Assembly: GCA_030681515.1 (NCBI GenBank)
Contig: JAUXSE010000003.1
Location: 1-38,032 of the forward strand
DNA length: 38,032 nucleotides
Reading direction: 5' to 3'
Origin: Geothrix sp.
Lineage (GTDB): Bacteria > Acidobacteriota > Holophagae > Holophagales > Holophagaceae
Of this stretch, positions 1 to 26,981 are shown in pieces; positions within the stretch are counted from its first letter, which is position 1, and every line of letters begins with the position of its first letter. The translations under genes were made by a program, and so were the position numbers. The notes beneath the pieces are model-generated. The model did no database searches. It was not told where the DNA came from and saw nothing but the letters and a program-made list of their open reading frames with translations.

Positions 1-85
1 TCGCCCGAGGCTTGAATCCCAACTCCAGCTTCGCCTGGATCATTGCTCGTTCCTCGCAACTCAGATGTGTGTAGTGTTTTCCCAT
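1..85 (-). CDS. IS30-family transposase, N-terminal fragment cut by the window edge
   Basis: Reading leftward from the ATG at 83-85, the first 28 codons give MGKHYTHLSCEERAMIQAKL, then ELGFKPRA. The Y/H-x-H-L-S-x-E-E-R start followed by a short helix-turn-helix is the usual beginning of IS30-family DDE transposases, which bind the element's inverted ends and cut and join DNA. Only this start is inside the window, so I cannot say whether the gene is intact. The next bases to the right look like the outer end of the same element. The family call rests on the N-terminal motif alone. Confidence 0.7.
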   Translation of the reverse strand, partial: MGKHYTHLSCEERAMIQAKLELGFKPRA

Positions 86-132
86 GCAACCATTCTTTCT
101 GAAGAATGTTGCACTTGGGGATTGAGCGCGCC
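1..132 (-). mobile_element. End of an IS30-like insertion sequence
   Basis: The transposase start is followed outward by about 47 bases ending near GGATTGAGCGCGCC at about 119-132. A short noncoding end of this length carrying the terminal inverted repeat is typical of IS30 elements. The adjoining DNA at 133 is an arm of the ATCCTGTTA repeat, so the element appears to have inserted into or against that repeat. The exact end is uncertain because the other end lies outside the window. Confidence 0.5.
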
Positions 133-209
133 AGGATTAAAGCAATTGTTTTTTATCTTTAATCCTGTTAATCCTGTTAATCCTGAAAAATCCTGTTCAT
201 CCTGTCCTT
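133..209. repeat. ATCCTGTTA-type 9-bp tandem array with hairpin
   Basis: AGGATTAAAG (133-142) pairs perfectly with CTTTAATCCT (157-166) across a 14-base loop. From 161 the sequence continues as 9-bp units of ATCCTGTTA that decay to ATCCTGTTC and ATCCTGTCC. The same array type occurs at 1291-1420, 14640-14730 and 15133-15176. The array stops about 18 bases before the TPR gene, so it forms that gene's leader. Any left arm has been replaced by the IS30 end. Confidence 0.8.
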
Positions 210-13031: not shown

Positions 13032-13121
13032 TCATTGCCCGGATCGCATCTGTTCGTGGACCAAGACCTCCTGACTTGCCTTGGCCAGCAGGATGCGGAC
13101 TGCTTCAGCCCGCGCGTTCAT
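13032..13121 (-). pseudogene. N-terminal remnant of the HEPN partner of the MNT gene
   Basis: The frame starts at ATG 13119-13121, overlapping the end of the nucleotidyltransferase gene by 17 bases. It gives MNARAEAVRILLAKASQEVL then VHEQMRSGQ and stops at 13032-13034. Helix-rich starts of the MNARAEAxRxLxKAxQ type are typical of HEPN toxins, which follow MNT antitoxins with such overlaps, but the remaining 90 or so residues with the R-x4-6-H motif are gone. I read it as a deleted toxin beside a surviving antitoxin. Confidence 0.55.
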
Positions 13122-13425
13122 ACACCACCTGGCCGTGCCGAGCGGCCTCGAAGAGCGCAGTCCCGGGCTGATCCTTCCAGGTCTCGAACTGCTCGGCATC
13201 CGCGACCATCACATCTACGGGAACCCCAAGGGGACGCAGGCTGGCCCTCAGGCGCACCATCTCGGCCCGCCGGGACTTCAGACCGGTTTCGATCACCAGA
13301 AAGTCCAGGTCGGAATCCTCCCGGGCGGTACCCCTCGCGTAGGATCCAAAGAGGATCACCCGCTGCACAACGGATTGTGCGGCCAACAGCCGGATGGCCT
13401 CCTGGATGGTGTCGTTTGAAATCAC
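13105..13425 (-). CDS. MNT-type minimal nucleotidyltransferase (antitoxin-like)
   Basis: The protein has 106 residues. VILFGSYARGTAREDSDLDF (about residues 24-43) contains the G-S-x-A-R-G-x9-D-x-D motif, and the third Asp is in PVDVMVA. This is the minimal nucleotidyltransferase fold of MntA antitoxins, which add AMP to their HEPN toxin (shown for MntA/HepT of Shewanella). The 3' neighbour is a HEPN start that breaks off after 29 codons. The gene sits between pilT and pilC, which are normally adjacent, and begins 10 bases after the pilT stop. Confidence 0.85.
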   Translation of the reverse strand: MISNDTIQEAIRLLAAQSVVQRVILFGSYARGTAREDSDLDFLVIETGLKSRRAEMVRLRASLRPLGVPVDVMVADAEQFETWKDQPGTALFEAARHGQVVYERAG

Positions 13426-13434
13426 GGTTCCAGC

Positions 13435-14616
13435 TTACGTGTACTTGATGTTGGGATTCCGCCCCCCCAGCGCGGTGCTGGCGGGCTGGGCGGGGGCGTT
13501 GGCCCGGCCCCCGGCGGAACCGACGCCCACGCCACGGTTGATGAGCTCGCGCAGTTCGTCGGTGTTGGAGGAGTACTCGAAGGCCTGTTCCTGGGTGATT
13601 TCCTTGCGGAGCACCAGATCGGACAGGCTCTGGTTGAAGGTCTGCATGCCGTACTTGGTCTGGCCGGCCTGCATGACGCCGTAGACCTGGTGGATCTTGT
13701 CCTCGCGGATGAGGTTCCGGATGGCGGGGTTGGGCAGCATGATCTCCAGCGCCAGGGCCCGTCCCTTGCCGCTGGCCTTGGGGATGAGGCTCTGGCAGAT
13801 GACGCCTTCCAGCACCAGGGAGAGCTGGGCGCGGATCTGGGGCTGCTGATGGGCGGGAAACACGTCAATGATGCGGTTGATGGTCTGCACGGTGCTGTTG
13901 GTGTGCAGGGTGCCAAAGGTGAGGTGGCCCGTTTCGGCGATGGTGAGGGCCGATTCGATGGTTTCGAGATCCCGCATCTCGCCCACCAGCTCCACGTCGG
14001 GATCCTGGCGCAGGGCCGAGCGCAGGGCCTTCTTGAAGCTGTGGGTATCGGCGTGGATCTCGCGCTGGTTCACCAGGGCCCGCCGGTGCTTGTGCACGTA
14101 TTCCACCGGATCCTCGATGGTGAGGATGTGCACCGGCTCCTCGGCGTTGATCTTGTCCACCATGGCCGCCAGGGTGGTGGACTTGCCCGAACCGGTCACG
14201 CCCGTCACCAGCACCAGACCCCGGGGCTTGTCGCAGAGGCCCTGGATGGCGGGGGGCAGCCCCAGCTGCTCGAAGCTGCGGATGTTCTCGGGGATGGTGC
14301 GGAACACGCCGGCGGTGGCGCCCCGCTGATTGAACACGTTGGCGCGGAACCGGGCCACGCCCTGGAGGCCGAAGGAGAAGTCCACTTCGAGATCCTCCTC
14401 CAGGCGGTGCTTCTGCTGATCGGTCATCACGCCGTAGCAGAGCCAGCGGGTCTGCGAGGCGTCGAGGGGCGGCAGCTTGAGGGGCACCATGCGCCCGTCA
14501 ATGCGGATCTGCGGCGCCGAATCCGTGGTGATGTGCAGATCCGTGCCCCCGTACTCCACCAGCGTCTTGAGCAGCTGCTGGAGGGGGGCAACGTAATTGG
14601 CGCCGACTTCGCTCAT
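13435..14616 (-). CDS. pilT: Type IV pilus retraction ATPase PilT
   Basis: The protein has 393 residues, starting at ATG 14614-14616 (MSEVGANYVAPLQQLLKTLV). The upstream frame continues into the 9-bp repeat, so a longer start is unlikely. Motifs include Walker A GVTGSGKST (139-147), the Asp box around TIEDPVEYVH (167-176), Walker B VELVGEMRD (208-216), the His box HLTFGTLHT (231-239) and AIRNLIRE, the hallmark of PilT that is needed for retraction in other species. PilT disassembles the pilus and powers twitching. It is read with pilB upstream, with the repeat-bounded GxxExxY gene between. Confidence 0.96.
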   Translation of the reverse strand: MSEVGANYVAPLQQLLKTLVEYGGTDLHITTDSAPQIRIDGRMVPLKLPPLDASQTRWLCYGVMTDQQKHRLEEDLEVDFSFGLQGVARFRANVFNQRGATAGVFRTIPENIRSFEQLGLPPAIQGLCDKPRGLVLVTGVTGSGKSTTLAAMVDKINAEEPVHILTIEDPVEYVHKHRRALVNQREIHADTHSFKKALRSALRQDPDVELVGEMRDLETIESALTIAETGHLTFGTLHTNSTVQTINRIIDVFPAHQQPQIRAQLSLVLEGVICQSLIPKASGKGRALALEIMLPNPAIRNLIREDKIHQVYGVMQAGQTKYGMQTFNQSLSDLVLRKEITQEQAFEYSSNTDELRELINRGVGVGSAGGRANAPAQPASTALGGRNPNIKYT

Positions 14617-14639
14617 GGGGGCCTCGGGAAAAACAAAAA

Positions 14640-14730
14640 GCTGGGACAGGATTAACAGGATTGAAAGCAGGATTAACAGGATTAGAAAAGGAACTAACAA
14701 GAAGAAGGGCAGGATTAACAGGATTCTGGC
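14640..14730. repeat. Left arm of the ATCCTGTTA-type cassette around the GxxExxY gene
   Basis: GACAGGATTAACAGGATT and further AGGATTAACAGGATT units recur at about 14645, 14669 and 14711. Bases 14645-14666 are the exact reverse complement of 15152-15173, a perfect 22-bp inverted repeat. Bases 14640-14662 equal 1291-1313. The stop codon of the GxxExxY gene (TAA, 14715-14717) lies within this arm. Confidence 0.9.
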
Positions 14731-15113
14731 GGGCGGGGAGATCGGAATTTTTTCTTCACCTGGAGGCTGCGGGTTCCGAAGTTCAGAAGCAGGCCCTGTT
14801 CCAGGCCGGTCGCGGCCAGGTAGTTGACCACTTGAACCTCATGTTCGGGAAGGATGGTCTGCACGGCCTTCAGTTCCAAAATCAAAACGCCTGCCACCAG
14901 GAGGTCTGCTCGATACAGTCCGACCAGTTCGCCGCGGTAGCGGACTTCCAGTTTCACTTCACGCTCGAACGGGATGCCTTCCAGAGCCATTTCCAAGGCC
15001 AGGGCATTCTGGTACACGGCTTCCGTGAATCCAGGTCCGAGCGTCGAATGCACCCGCATCGCCGCCCCGATCACCCGACCCGAAAGCTCATCCAAAGCGG
15101 CACCATCAGCCAT
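14715..15113 (-). CDS. GxxExxY-family protein
   Basis: The protein has 132 residues. LSGRVIGAAMRVHSTLGPGF then TEAVYQNALALEMALEGIPF shows the family-naming G-x-x-E-x-x-Y (GPGFTEAVY, about residues 26-34). VGLYRADLLVAGVLILELKA supplies the D...E-x-K expected of a PD-(D/E)XK-like core, and AAxxLEQGLLLNFGTRSLQVK is the usual end. The family is often multicopy and its function is unknown; nuclease activity is inferred from fold. The last codons (ESC-stop) come from the flanking repeat. The gene lies inside the pilus operon between pilB and pilT, bounded by inverted arrays, and no Shine-Dalgarno stands out. Confidence 0.9.
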   Translation of the reverse strand: MADGAALDELSGRVIGAAMRVHSTLGPGFTEAVYQNALALEMALEGIPFEREVKLEVRYRGELVGLYRADLLVAGVLILELKAVQTILPEHEVQVVNYLAATGLEQGLLLNFGTRSLQVKKKFRSPRPPESC

Positions 15114-15132
15114 TCCAAGAATTCCTTTTTTG

Positions 15133-15176
15133 AAATCCTGTAAATCAATCTTTTCAATCCTGTTAATCCTGTCAAA
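15133..15176. repeat. Right arm of the ATCCTGTTA-type cassette
   Basis: AAATCCTGTAAATCAATC and TTTTCAATCCTGTTAATCCT (to 15170) are degenerate 9-bp units in the opposite orientation to 14640-14730. Bases 15152-15173 form the perfect 22-bp inverted repeat with 14645-14666. The pilB stop (15204-15206) is about 28 bases away, after an AAGATCTTTTTTCTT stretch. Confidence 0.9.
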
Positions 15177-15203
15177 GATCTTTTTTCTTCGAGTGGGCGA
15201 TGC

Positions 15204-17048
<1,845 letters not shown>

Positions 17049-20332: not shown

Positions 20333-20492
20333 GGGCTTCAGGCTCTAGGCTCTAGGCTCTAGGCTCTAGGGGGGGCTGTGGCGGCCTTTGGCCGCACTTC
20401 CTTTTTCCTTTGGGCCGTTTGGAACGGCGTGGCCGTCCAGAAATGAGTGCCCCCATCTTTCCTGGAGCCTGAAGCCTGAAGCCTGAAGCCTA
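20333..20492. repeat. Inverted heptad arrays between GGDEF gene and dnaJ, no gene inside
   Basis: The left arm (20333-20370) is GGCTTCA followed by four GGCTCTA units. The right arm (20461-20492) reads as three AGCCTGA-type heptads. GGCTTCAGGCTCTAGG on the left pairs with the reverse complement of the right arm at 15 of 16 positions. The 90-base spacer holds GCGGCCTTTGGCCGC (20381-20395) before a pyrimidine run (CTTCCTTTTT), which could stop transcription from the GGDEF side. On the minus strand the right arm begins at the dnaJ stop codon: TAGGCTTCAGGCTTCAGG. Confidence 0.85.
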
Positions 20493-21650
20493 CTTCCGCT
20501 TCTTCTTCCCGCCCTTTTCGGATCCGAACACCTTGGCGAGGAAGCCCTCTTCTTCGCCCTCGGCGGCGTCCCCGTCGAGGCTGCGCCGGAGCTGATCCAC
20601 GAGCTGGCGCTGTTCGGCGGTCAGGGATTTCGGCACCGCCACCCGCAGGTGCAGGTAGAGATCGCCGCGGCCGCTGCCCTGCAGGCGCGGCACCCCGGCA
20701 TTCACCAGCTTCACCACATGGTCCGCGGGCGTGCCCGCCGCCACCTTCACCTTGTCCGTGCCGTAGGGCGTTTCCACCTCCAGGGCGCCGCCGACCACCA
20801 GCAGCGGCCAGTTGATCTCGAGGCGCCGGTGGAGGTCGCTGCCATCCCGCTCGTAGCGCAGATCCGGTTCCACGTCGAAGACCACGTACAGATCGCCCGA
20901 GCGGCCCCCGGAGCGTCCCGCCTCGCCCTGGCCCTGGAGCCTGAGCCGCGTGCCCCGGTCCACGCCCGCCGGGACCTTGAAGCTCACCTTGGATTTCCGA
21001 TGGATGCGCCCCTCGCCATGGCAGGTCCGGCAGGGCTTCGGGATGACGCGGCCCCGGCCCTCGCAGCGCGGACAGGGCGTGAGCATCTGGAAGAAGCCCT
21101 GGCGCACGGCCACCTGTCCCGCGCCCCGGCACTGGGGGCAGGTCTCGGGCCGGGAGCCAGCCTCGCAGCCCGATCCATGGCAGGAGTCGCAGGCTTCCAG
21201 GCGCGGGATGGAAAGCTCCACCGCGTCCTTCCCGAAGATCGCGTCGTGGAAGCTGAGCTTCAGATTGTACTGAAGGTCGGACCCGCGTTCCTCTCCGTTG
21301 GCCCGGCGGCGGCCGCCGCCGAAGAGATCCCCGAACATGCCCCCGCCGAAGAAGCTGCCGAGGATGTCCTCGAAATCGGCGAACTGGTTCGGGTCGAACT
21401 GGAACTGCTGGCCGCCGCCGCCCGCGCCACCCAGCCCCGCGTGGCCGAACTGATCGTAGACCTTCCGCTTCTCCGGGTCGGACAGCACGCTGTACGCCTC
21501 GGCGGCCTCCTTGAACTTCTCCTCCGCCGCCTTGTTGCCCGGATTGCGGTCGGGGTGCAGTTCCATGGCCAGCTTGCGGTAGGCCTTCTTCATCTCGTCG
21601 GCCCCGGCCTCCTTCGGGATGCCGAGCACTTCGTAGTAGTCGCGTTTCAT
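20490..21650 (-). CDS. dnaJ: Chaperone DnaJ
   Basis: The protein has 386 residues. I start at ATG 21648-21650 (MKRDYYEVLGIPKEAGADEM); an earlier in-frame ATG would read through the S23-like gene's tail. The J domain (1-70) has HPD in MELHPDRNPGN, followed by a Gly/Phe-rich stretch (GGAGGGGQQFQFDPNQFADF). Four zinc-binding repeats are intact: CDSCHGSG, CPQCRGAG, CPRCEGRG and CRTCHGEG. The C-terminal substrate domain ends in a basic EKGGKKKRK tail. DnaJ delivers unfolded proteins to DnaK and stimulates its ATPase. The TAG stop opens the heptad array downstream. Confidence 0.97.
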   Translation of the reverse strand: MKRDYYEVLGIPKEAGADEMKKAYRKLAMELHPDRNPGNKAAEEKFKEAAEAYSVLSDPEKRKVYDQFGHAGLGGAGGGGQQFQFDPNQFADFEDILGSFFGGGMFGDLFGGGRRRANGEERGSDLQYNLKLSFHDAIFGKDAVELSIPRLEACDSCHGSGCEAGSRPETCPQCRGAGQVAVRQGFFQMLTPCPRCEGRGRVIPKPCRTCHGEGRIHRKSKVSFKVPAGVDRGTRLRLQGQGEAGRSGGRSGDLYVVFDVEPDLRYERDGSDLHRRLEINWPLLVVGGALEVETPYGTDKVKVAAGTPADHVVKLVNAGVPRLQGSGRGDLYLHLRVAVPKSLTAEQRQLVDQLRRSLDGDAAEGEEEGFLAKVFGSEKGGKKKRK

Positions 21651-21657
21651 GGGTTGG

Positions 21658-22092
21658 TCAGTCCTCTGGCGCTTGGCTTCTGGCTTCTGGCTTCTGGGGA
21701 GATCTTGGTTCGGGATGGCGTGGTGATTCAGGTGTCTGAGAAAGGGCCTGCCGGCGAGCATTGACGAGCCCCGACACCAGTCGGGCCACATCCTGAGACA
21801 AACCGATCAGATGTCCATTCTCCCCTAAAAAGCCCAGTTCCCGCGCTAGGTCCAGTTGGAATTCCAGCTCACAGGCCGATCCAAGTGCCATGTCCAGGAA
21901 CCGGAGGTAGTCACGCTCGCTTTGCCGCGCGCACCCTTCCACCAGATTGGATGGGACCGATACGGCTGAACGCCGGATCTGGGAAGTCAACCCGAACAGC
22001 TCTTCCCGTGGGAACCGTGAAGTAGCTCGATAGACCTCCAAGGCCAGTTCCCTGGCCTTGGTGAAAGCGACCAGCTTTCGATGATCCCGCAT
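21658..22092 (-). CDS. Four-helix-bundle protein (S23 / TIGR02436 family)
   Basis: The protein has 144 residues, starting at ATG 22090-22092 (MRDHRKLVAFTKARELALEV) with GGAGG seven bases upstream. YRATSRFPREELFGLTSQIR then RSAVSVPSNLVEGCARQSER is the diagnostic S23 pattern, followed by DYLRFLDMALGSACELEFQL. The family includes proteins encoded in 23S rRNA intervening sequences and the Avd accessory protein of diversity-generating retroelements; its role when alone is unknown. The last 15 or so residues (RSPQKPEARSQAPED) come from the flanking heptad array. It lies between dnaK and dnaJ inside inverted arrays and stops eight bases before dnaJ. Confidence 0.92.
   Translation of the reverse strand: MRDHRKLVAFTKARELALEVYRATSRFPREELFGLTSQIRRSAVSVPSNLVEGCARQSERDYLRFLDMALGSACELEFQLDLARELGFLGENGHLIGLSQDVARLVSGLVNARRQALSQTPESPRHPEPRSPQKPEARSQAPED
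21672..21697. repeat. Left heptad arm of the S23-like cassette
   Basis: Three GGCTTCT heptads plus GG occupy 21675-21697. They pair with 22133-22155 as a 23-bp inverted repeat with one mismatch. The arm is translated as the C-terminus of the S23-like protein. Confidence 0.9.
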
Positions 22093-22130
22093 GATCGGAA
22101 CCTCCAACCTGGGGGCCTCCGGCCCCGGGA

Positions 22131-22189
22131 AGCCAGAAGCCAGGAGCCAGAAGCCTGAAGCCTGAAGCCTGAAGCCTGAAGCCTGAAGC

Positions 22190-22192
<3 letters not shown>
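22131..22192. repeat. Right heptad arm of the S23-like cassette
   Basis: CCAGAAGCCAGGAGCCAGAA (22133-22152) and onward mirrors the left arm. It is followed by five or more GAAGCCT heptads up to 22192. On the minus strand it reads TAGGCTTCAGGCTTCAGG from the dnaK stop codon (22190-22192). The first 27 bases are identical to the start of the array after the dnaJ stop. Confidence 0.9.
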
Positions 22193-26034: not shown

Positions 26035-26877
26035 ATGCACCCGCTGTTCCCCCGTCTCTCCCTCGCGGCGGTCCTCGCTTTCTCCCTGGCCTGCAACCCG
26101 AAGAGCGCGGCGGCCATCCAGGCCGAGGAGGCCGCCAAGGCCGCCGAGGCCAAGGTGGCCCTGCTTGAGCAGCAGCTGGCCGAAGCCAAATCCGGCAAGG
26201 CCACCGGCGCGGATGCCGAGACCGTCCAGCACGTCACCAAGTCCCAGGTGAAGGCCCTCGAACGCCAGGTCGCGGACGCCAGGAAGCGGGCCGCGGTGAA
26301 GCAGCAGGAAGCCGTCACCCTGGCCCAGGCCCCGGTGGCCAAGGAAGCCCCCAAACCGGTGGTGGTCGAGGTTCCCACGGGCACCAAGCTCGAGATTTCC
26401 CTGGCCCGCGAACTGACCACCGAAAAGGATCAGGCCGGCGACCCCTGGGAAGGCACCCTGGCCTCGGATGTGGTCCAGGAGGGCAAGCTGGTCTGGAGCG
26501 CGGGCAGCCCCGCCCGGGGCGTCGTCACCCAGAGCGCCGCCGCCGGCCGCCTGAGCAATGGCCAGGGCGCCCTGGGCATCCGGCTCACGGAGATCGCCGG
26601 CCTTGGCATTGATGCGGACACCCATGTGGTGGTGGCCACGGCCCGGGGTGAGCGGAACGCCAAGTACATCGGGGGCGGCGCGGCCCTGGGCGCCCTCATC
26701 GGCATCCTGTCGGACAAGAAGAACAAGAACGACCACGCCCTGGGTGGCGCGGCCATCGGGGCCGCCGCCGGCACCGCCGCCGCCGCCGGCACCGCCGACA
26801 CCATCATCCGCATCCCTTCGGGCAAGCCCGTCTCCTTCAGCCTGACGGCGCCGGAAAGGGTGACCCTCAGGAAGTAG
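26035..26877 (+). CDS. Lipoprotein with coiled coil and glycine-zipper segment
   Basis: The protein has 280 residues, starting at ATG 26035 with GGAGG five bases upstream. MHPLFPRLSLAAVLAFSLAC is a signal with a possible lipobox ending at Cys20. Residues 25-100 are an alanine- and lysine-rich coiled coil. A beta-rich section follows (VPTGTKLEISLARELTTEKD, then GKLVWSAGSPARGVVTQSAA) that resembles outer-membrane or periplasmic stress lipoproteins. GGGAALGALIGIL and GGAAIGAAAGTAAAAG are glycine-zipper stretches. Function is unknown. The stop TAG (26875-26877) opens the heptad array with TAGCTATCGG. Confidence 0.75.
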   Translation: MHPLFPRLSLAAVLAFSLACNPKSAAAIQAEEAAKAAEAKVALLEQQLAEAKSGKATGADAETVQHVTKSQVKALERQVADARKRAAVKQQEAVTLAQAPVAKEAPKPVVVEVPTGTKLEISLARELTTEKDQAGDPWEGTLASDVVQEGKLVWSAGSPARGVVTQSAAAGRLSNGQGALGIRLTEIAGLGIDADTHVVVATARGERNAKYIGGGAALGALIGILSDKKNKNDHALGGAAIGAAAGTAAAAGTADTIIRIPSGKPVSFSLTAPERVTLRK

Positions 26878-26977
26878 CTATCGGCTATCAGCTATCGGCT
26901 ATCAGGAAACAGAAGCGGGAGGCAGGCCTCCTGCTTCTGTTTTTTTTACTGAGAGCTGAGAGCCGACAGCTGACAGC
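26875..26977. repeat. Inverted heptad arrays around a two-way terminator
   Basis: The left arm (26875-26906) repeats GCTATCG/GCTATCA four times, beginning in the stop codon of the lipoprotein gene. The right arm (26949-26977), read on the minus strand, is GCTGTCAGCTGTCGG then GCTCTCAGCTCTCAG, a diverged copy of the same heptads. The pair encloses only the terminator hairpin at 26906-26947. It lies between convergent genes. Confidence 0.85.
26906..26947. terminator. Two-way terminator between the lipoprotein gene and prfA
   Basis: AACAGAAGC...GCTTCTGTT with an inner GGAGG/CCTCC stem is followed by TTTTTTT on the plus strand, and the mirrored GGAAAC side gives a weak run on the other strand. 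It would end the lipoprotein message and possibly prfA. Confidence 0.85.
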
Positions 26978-26981
26978 CCCC

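Follow-up and report, generated by a model that had tools for sequence, protein, structure and literature searches.

A GxxExxY gene between inverted arrays of short tandem words at the pilB-pilT junction of Geothrix sp.: a candidate REP/RAYT-like mobile element

The block between pilB and pilT

We analysed a stretch of 38,032 nucleotides from Geothrix sp. (contig JAUXSE010000003.1, assembly GCA_030681515.1), hereafter the window. Between pilT and pilB it carries a block of about 547 bp that is made up of a left array, a minus-strand GxxExxY gene and a right array in inverted orientation. The features at this locus are:

13435-14616, minus strand: pilT, the downstream neighbour, with a T2SSE domain (named from the preliminary description and context)
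14636-15182, minus strand: the whole mobile-element-like block (terminal inverted repeat, gene, terminal inverted repeat), delimited by the end consensus of sister elements
14636-14725, minus strand: left terminal array, with AAAAGCTGGGACAGGATTAACAGGATT and additional CAGGATTAA words
14715-15113, minus strand: GxxExxY gene, predicted PD-(D/E)XK nuclease with conserved E31, D70, E80 and K82 (profiles, alignment and model)
15136-15182, plus strand: right terminal array, ATCCTGTAAATC...TTTCAATCCTGTTAATCCTGTC
15204-17048, minus strand: pilB, the upstream neighbour, start approximate (named as in the preliminary description)

The preliminary description had the gene enclosed by arrays in opposite orientation, and both are present, with words in the CAGGATTAA orientation at 14647-14725 and in the ATCCTGTTA orientation at 15136-15175. 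The 22-nt inverted repeat that it reported at 14645-14666 and 15152-15173 is indeed perfect when read by eye, and lies within longer arms (14628-14666 and 15152-15190) that a repeat finder pairs over 39 nt at 85%. The left arm also supplies the stop codon of the gene, as had been claimed, the TAA at 14715-14717 (minus strand) falling within the left array. The cassette itself stands, and only its proposed limits (14640-15180) needed correction, to about 14636-15182: in the consensus of 48 ends from 24 sister elements the block limit lies 11 nt outside CAGGATTAA. The right outer end (~15182) is degenerate. Allowing up to two mismatches, the window contains 10 occurrences of ATCCTGTTAATCCTG, whereas 100 shuffled versions contain 0.01 on average. 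Among the 153 window ORFs (100 codons or more, any frame), only the GxxExxY ORF and the opposite-strand ORF overlapping it have a flank inverted-repeat score of at least 30, a value reached by 0.45% of 2000 random 360-bp intervals. Elsewhere in the window, a MNT-like nucleotidyltransferase gene (PF01909) lies just downstream of pilT at 13105-13425, and at the contig end (37656-37963) a 153-bp unit occurs twice in tandem (94% matches).

Profile searches match the product of the gene to TIGR04256 (139.2 bits, cut-off 35) and to PF13366, PDDEXK_3 (138.1 bits, cut-off 22). Its AlphaFold model (pLDDT 93.2, pTM 0.86) has two helices, three strands, a helix and two strands, and the best PDB match of this model is SSO0001 (Foldseek E 3.2e-4; Z 9.3, rmsd 5.0 over 105 residues), which we take to be a Cas4. 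Below it in Foldseek and VIA come the PD-(D/E)XK nucleases LHK-Exo, MGME1 and lambda exonuclease, in a rank order that is no evidence of function; by sequence, a search of solved structures returned a single weak match (E 0.062). Among 36 diverse GxxExxY members E24, D63 and K75 are invariant and E73 is present in at least 90%, and the positions of E31, D70, E80 and K82 are all invariant in a 16-row alignment. Judged by the model, the window protein is predicted to fold as a PD-(D/E)XK nuclease, and the PD-(D/E)XK-like core seen earlier is in agreement with both profiles, the fold and the active-site residues. The putative nuclease is likely to be active. In the profile searches the gene matched PD-(D/E)XK families only, and neither a tyrosine (Y1/HUH) transposase nor a DDE or other known transposase; PADLOC gave no match for the protein. 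GxxExxY homologues are carried by 8 of 72,556 plasmid records.

Filled and empty sites, flanks and a second gene family

The preliminary description had suggested comparing the pilB-pilT junction in related genomes. Across 13 genomes of the genus, three are filled at the same place and 10 are empty, and in nine of these 10 the pilB stop and the pilT start are about 8-13 bp apart (read by eye). The tenth (G001) has a spacer of about 40 bp, a possible loss scar, and is the sister of the filled G010. When named relatives are added there are eight filled and 10 empty junctions, which require seven changes on a pilT tree of 18 rows (L143 and L145, second copies of G008 and G010, were left out). Filled and empty labels are no more clustered on this tree than shuffled ones (456 of 500 shuffles as low), and filled and empty sisters occur at two well-supported forks.

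At this site GxxExxY distances track pilT distances (rho 0.64, 2 of 2000 permutations), and the gene is more diverged than pilT in all 28 pairs and more similar in none. Because the gene tracks pilT and is always the more diverged of the two, a recent transfer into pilB-pilT is not indicated, and recent horizontal homing at this site finds no support. We read the block here as a probably ancient, inherited feature that has been lost again and again (or gained on several occasions in the distant past), and not as a recent arrival. Of the claim that the cassette had been inserted, the empty sites bear out the insertion itself; fresh movement at this junction is not borne out, the block appearing old and vertically inherited.

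Similar sites exist elsewhere. When the flanks of 14 elements in four genomes were joined, relatives gave uninterrupted matches, hence empty sites, for three further GxxExxY elements, for the C7 element described below, for the four-helix-bundle element of the window and for a number of gene-less elements. Gene and arms form a single unit in this respect, and are either both there or both missing. In the six junctions that were read, several insertions adjoin a stop codon (for example C30 and C11). Two of the 'empty' sites, L237 and L255, retain arm-like scraps (GAACGCAGAGGACACAGTGATCC in G008, at the site of the C1 element, and GGACAGGATCAGCC in G002), perhaps remnants of loss.

Genomes of the genus have 0-10 GxxExxY matches each. 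In the genome of the window all five GxxExxY genes are flanked by inverted repeats, with scores of 34 to 72, and by eye their words are of different types: ATCCTGTTA, CACGGAGA, CGGTGATT, TTCCGTGTA and CTTCGTGTC. Words vary between elements, yet agree at the two ends of one element. Among loci of the genus and its class, 45/63 have a flank inverted-repeat score of at least 30, as against 0% of shuffled flanks and 3.5% of mismatched flank pairs. Extended to several phyla, the score is reached by 79 of 107 distinct GxxExxY loci and by none of 28 pilT-homologue controls. The 79 comprise 50/68 loci from Geothrix and its class, 10/12 from seven named genomes that belong to other lineages (Verrucomicrobia, Opitutia, Bacteroidetes, Flavobacterium, Bacteroidaceae, Desulfobacteraceae and one other Acidobacteria) and 19/27 from genomes in the same phylum as the Verrucomicrobia genome G031. 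The 107 loci remain from 129, themselves the best matches of larger profile searches plus fetched stretches, after dropping those with less than 200 bp on either side, a profile score of 80 or lower, long N runs or exact repeats; the controls are 28 of 30 pilT-homologue loci, whose genes are longer than GxxExxY and three of which abut the cassette on one side.

The other 28 of the 107 loci have no clear arms. A score of 30 demands an inverted repeat and does not require tandem words, and a few of the 79 reach it through other sequence (e.g., L067, L218, L220). The best word period is 8-10 in 59/79 armed loci, and most elements have an 8-10-bp word of their own. The flank enrichment that the preliminary description proposed to look for is thus present as inverted repeats, and its expectation of the same 9-mer at every locus is not upheld.

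Arm similarity rises with protein identity over the 79 loci (Mantel rho 0.231, 0 of 500 permutations), also when only pairs below 70% identity (rho 0.197, 0 of 500) or below 50% identity (rho 0.12, 1 of 500) are considered. Arm type appears to follow the nuclease tree, also across phyla: in two cases, one in a Verrucomicrobia genome (L150) and one in a Bacteroidetes genome (L152), window-type proteins have ACAGAATTA- and ACAGGATTG-type arms. Common descent of the unit suffices to give this correlation. Outer flanks are common to 60 of the 165 GxxExxY pairs at 55% identity or more, and 42/45 pairs at 70% or more sit at the same site; there is therefore little direct sign of jumping. For pairs without common flanks, similar arms are found in 11% of the 105 pairs at 55% identity or more and in 1.7% of more distant pairs. 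One of the former, L034 (G008) and L001 (G000), with 87% identical proteins, similar arms and no common outer flank, is a candidate for movement as a unit.

The same design recurs with an unrelated gene family, of which the window has one element:

21674-22191, minus strand: four-helix-bundle (23S_rRNA_IVP) gene at 21757-22062 between inverted 7-bp arrays (TGGCTTC / GAAGCCT), with empty sites in relatives

In the same genomes, 13/14 four-helix-bundle genes (TIGR02436, Pfam 23S_rRNA_IVP) reach a flank score of at least 30, and all 14 exceed their own 50 shuffles; these are 14 of 18 matches, four partial or weak ones having been left out. In the phylum of the Verrucomicrobia genome, 19 of 30 loci, taken from a longer list, reach the same score. 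The best period is 7 or 14 in 13/14 of the former and 7 in 18/30 of the latter. The four-helix-bundle (S23/IVP) family, unrelated to GxxExxY, has the same gene-in-inverted-array design with 7-bp words.

Two further places in the window carry heptamers and no gene. At 20334-20497 lies an inverted pair (AGGCTCT / AGCCTGA), likely a short relative of the four-helix-bundle element, and at 26876-26978 a pair of GGCTATC and GACAGCT types surrounds a terminator-like hairpin, with words resembling those of the four-helix-bundle gene at G000:C1:187025.

Gene-less copies and the structure of the ends

Two more features of the window bear ATCCTGTTA-type sequence:

1287-1403, no strand: gene-less sister element with the same ends and a REPIN-like hairpin (fold z -8.3)
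159-205, plus strand: partial ATCCTGTTA array near the contig end

A Uma2-family PD-(D/E)XK gene (PF05685; 1514-2059) adjoins the first of these. Next to the ATCCTGTTA array, window 100-160 and L027 100-160 have a similar TTGCACTTGG at the contig start, as if one IS sits there.

These ends are found again at many other sites, where for the most part they form short inverted pairs without a gene. ATCCTGTTAATCCTG has 99 matches in 11 of 31 genomes, all within the genus, and its reversed control has none. Close opposite-strand ATCCTGTTA pairs (1 kb apart or less) are in one orientation in 28/28 cases, a number that includes some identical sites in different genomes; 20 are spaced by 40-138 bp and eight by 377-690 bp. 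The eight long pairs hold a GxxExxY gene (three, all at pilB-pilT), the PD-(D/E)XK-like gene of C7 (one), a nested GC-rich hairpin (three) and an N run (one). The C7 element (L023 1090-1620) has its PD-(D/E)XK-like gene within ATCCTGTTA arms, with a weak PF11645 match and a weak PADLOC 'homing endonuclease' match (E 0.0047). As a common second family this gene was discarded, being present in G000 and absent from the other 30 of the 31 genomes. The GC-rich hairpins (GGGCCCGCCGAAGGCGGCCTCCGGC...) are nested in or beside L024, L031, L177 and L178, some with CACAGAT or CGCAGAG words around them, a picture of layered insertions.

Beyond the search word, the outer end AAAAGCNGGGA is common to the 48 ends of 24 elements and has a sharp limit: its last three positions are A in 41-43 of the 48, with mixed composition further out. 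These elements were selected by an exact 15-nt word that forms the inner 15 nt of the alignment, so that only the outer 11 nt are informative, and they represent about 16 sites by eye, several repeated across genomes. No clear target-site duplication is seen in the 24 elements, 23 having 3 nt or less and one having 6 nt, with an uncertainty of one or two bases in the placing of the ends.

Left and right ends are no more alike within an element than between elements: for the variable block -12..-1, identity is 0.628 within elements and 0.644 with shuffled partners (block 15..44 was compared without gaps, so that its register may be wrong). A pairing constraint between the arms was accordingly rejected, as the variable positions do not covary inside elements. 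For concerted change of the arms there is a trend only, the within-element match exceeding the cross-species match at 8/10 sites (p 0.084). This comparison supersedes an earlier one in which within exceeded between in 60/60 pairs and which was biased because the arms had been selected as the best-scoring inverted repeats and the longer arm served to normalise lengths. When folded, 18 of 19 gene-less copies give z from -5.1 to -14 and one gives -3.3.

Related words are far more widespread. RCRRAG-type tandem words of the CRCRRAGRRCRCRRAG family (CACGAAGGA, CGCAGAGGA and similar) have 883 matches, spread over 24 of the 31 genomes, compared with 14 matches of the reversed control, and reach up to 185 in a single genome. 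At the listed places in G006, G024 and G030, neighbouring words are oriented +- in 22 cases and -+ in four, the latter all from G030. Within the genus, array number rises with GxxExxY number (rho 0.63, p 0.004; rho 0.41, p 0.08 after subtracting four arrays per gene), and genomes without GxxExxY have fewer CRCRRAGRRCRCRRAG words (0-15) than those with it (p 0.039 after the same subtraction), both uncorrected for kinship; four cassette-borne arrays per gene are assumed in these figures, and overlapping words of one array are counted separately. Solo copies of ATCCTGTTA are commoner in the three genomes with a window-type gene (p 0.028, kinship uncorrected). G016 is a clear exception, with 23 ATCCTGTTAATCCTG matches and no window-type gene among its five GxxExxY matches.

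What may move the arms, and comparison with known systems

We read the feature as one copy of a small REP/RAYT-like mobile element with the PD-(D/E)XK nuclease as its candidate mobiliser, a reading to which we give a probability of roughly 0.5. The element would consist of terminal inverted repeats of ~9-bp words, with an outer end of about AAAAGCNGGGACAGGATTAACAGGAT, around a single GxxExxY gene. The nuclease would recognise its cognate ends, in the form of duplex repeats or of an extruded hairpin, and cut there; excision or copying of the element, and in trans of the gene-less pairs, could then follow, in the manner of RAYT transposase and REPINs but by an enzyme unrelated to RAYT. A second lineage of this class of elements may be formed by the four-helix-bundle (S23/IVP) genes with their 7-bp words. 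The REP/RAYT-like reading is the most economical because gene and arms are linked, gene-less copies exist, the catalytic residues are conserved and the two ends vary independently.

Mobilisation of the arms by the nuclease is a plausible hypothesis, and the main rival concerns precisely this step. The arms could be moved by another enzyme, such as a host or IS transposase, with GxxExxY, four-helix-bundle and other genes as cargo kept, for example, for defence or addiction. GxxExxY may be such a passenger because ATCCTGTTA arms hold a different gene in C7 (if by a weak match) and none in most copies, 20 of the 28 close pairs being too short for a gene; many copies occur in G016, which lacks the window-type gene, and the architecture is also found with the four-helix-bundle family and in gene-less copies. 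Cargo would also fit the four-helix-bundle proteins, which are not known to be nucleases. Against it, word length depends on the family (8-10 in 59/79 GxxExxY loci; 7 or 14 in 13/14 and 7 in 18/30 four-helix-bundle loci) and arm type seems to follow the nuclease tree, whereas cargo is not expected to set the sequence of the ends. We regard this explanation as unlikely, though a serious contender.

A free-standing homing nuclease would instead cut an empty site, such as pilB-pilT, and spread horizontally into it, the arms being secondary. Such a process would fit the patchy filled and empty pattern with its seven changes, and the fact that close GxxExxY relatives mostly share a site (60 of 165 pairs and 42/45 pairs at the two identity thresholds above). 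At pilB-pilT, however, gene distances follow those of pilT (rho 0.64, 2 of 2000 permutations) with no pair more alike than pilT, and the dispersed gene-less copies are left unexplained, making homing of this kind improbable.

We consider it similarly improbable that the arms act as RNA, forming a transcript stem that RNase III would cut, as it does in 23S rRNA intervening sequences, and that would insulate the gene from the pilB-pilT operon, with insertion by unrelated recombination. The arms are complementary and the gene-less copies fold (z -5.1 to -14 in 18/19), and the related S23 intervening sequence of Coxiella, in the available part of its description, bears heptamers and terminal inverted repeats and is excised by RNase III (PMC4990558). 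Selection for pairing is contradicted by the missing covariation between the two arms (0.628 within, 0.644 shuffled), and the elements read here sit between protein genes, outside rRNA. Ends that vary independently fit sites read by a protein, unlike arms selected for RNA pairing. Least likely, and already disfavoured, is that paired tandem words bind global regulators such as IHF/HU, as proposed in the accessible portion of the Geobacter metallireducens paper for classes 1-3 (including TCTCCGTS[Y] and heptamers, on opposite strands at variable distance; PMC2700814), since the blocks are gained and lost, have a common sharp outer end and change their word from element to element inside one genome.

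Returning to the nuclease as mobiliser, a broader proposal is tentative and somewhat harder to sustain than the reading of the single element: GxxExxY genes with ~9-bp words and S23/IVP genes with 7-bp words may define a widespread class of mobile elements, in which the nuclease would be a new mobiliser that reads its own word and spreads gene-less copies in trans, and of which rRNA intervening sequences and the Geobacter 'regulator sites' would be members. The tandem words are tied to two uncharacterised protein families, with a word length set by the family, which makes for a testable system, and the recurrence of the gene-plus-repeat design in several phyla suggests small mobile DNA of a kind not recognised so far. 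Should the nuclease be the mobiliser, this would represent new chemistry for minimal bacterial mobile DNA and a possible common origin of rRNA intervening sequences and putative regulator sites.

In open-licence literature (preprints excluded), as far as its texts were available, we found no paper linking GxxExxY genes to arrays and, for RCRRAG-type words, no printed explanation beyond the regulator-site proposal. Of the open-licence papers that contain the names GxxExxY or PF13366, none is devoted by its title to this family (TIGR04256 / PF13366), and two array sequences have no exact occurrence in that literature. A heptamer repeat has been noted in Beggiatoaceae, according to the part of the source at hand (PMC4679880).

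Several known systems resemble the block in part. The 2009 genome paper of G. metallireducens, in its available sections, predicts classes 1-3 as global regulator sites with possible binding of IHF/HU, and describes tandem 7-9-bp words paired on opposite strands at variable distance, with ISGme8/9 at a fixed distance from class 1 sites (PMC2700814). Its class 2 word, TCTCCGTS[Y], is of the type found in the GxxExxY arms at G000:C30:58824, but those sections draw no link to GxxExxY or S23 genes or to gain and loss of blocks (PMC2700814). MITEs and IS elements share with the block sharp terminal inverted repeats and the coexistence of gene-bearing and gene-less copies, whereas the window block has no known transposase or clear target-site duplication. 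The Coxiella 23S rRNA intervening sequence, as far as the accessible text describes it, has a single small ORF inside terminal inverted repeats, with two or three tandem heptamers GACAGAT preceding the S23 start, and was proposed to be a transposition remnant (PMC4990558). The IVP gene with heptamer arrays at 21757-22062 of the window fits this plan, although the Coxiella copy lies inside 23S rRNA and that of the window between protein genes; the pilB-pilT block has an unrelated nuclease with 9-bp words and no IVP/S23 gene.

REPINs and RAYTs share the general plan. In the portion of the work available, REPINs are dispersed inverted pairs with short spacing, non-autonomous and hairpin-forming, the enzyme gene is flanked by the same sequence, and the RAYT phylogeny is largely congruent with that of the species (PMC3116915). 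Here too, inverted pairs of one short sequence lie between genes, and an enzyme gene has the same flanks. The differences, judged against the same partial text, are that RAYT is a tyrosine transposase whereas GxxExxY is a predicted PD-(D/E)XK nuclease, and that the repeat here is a short tandem array whose word varies by element.
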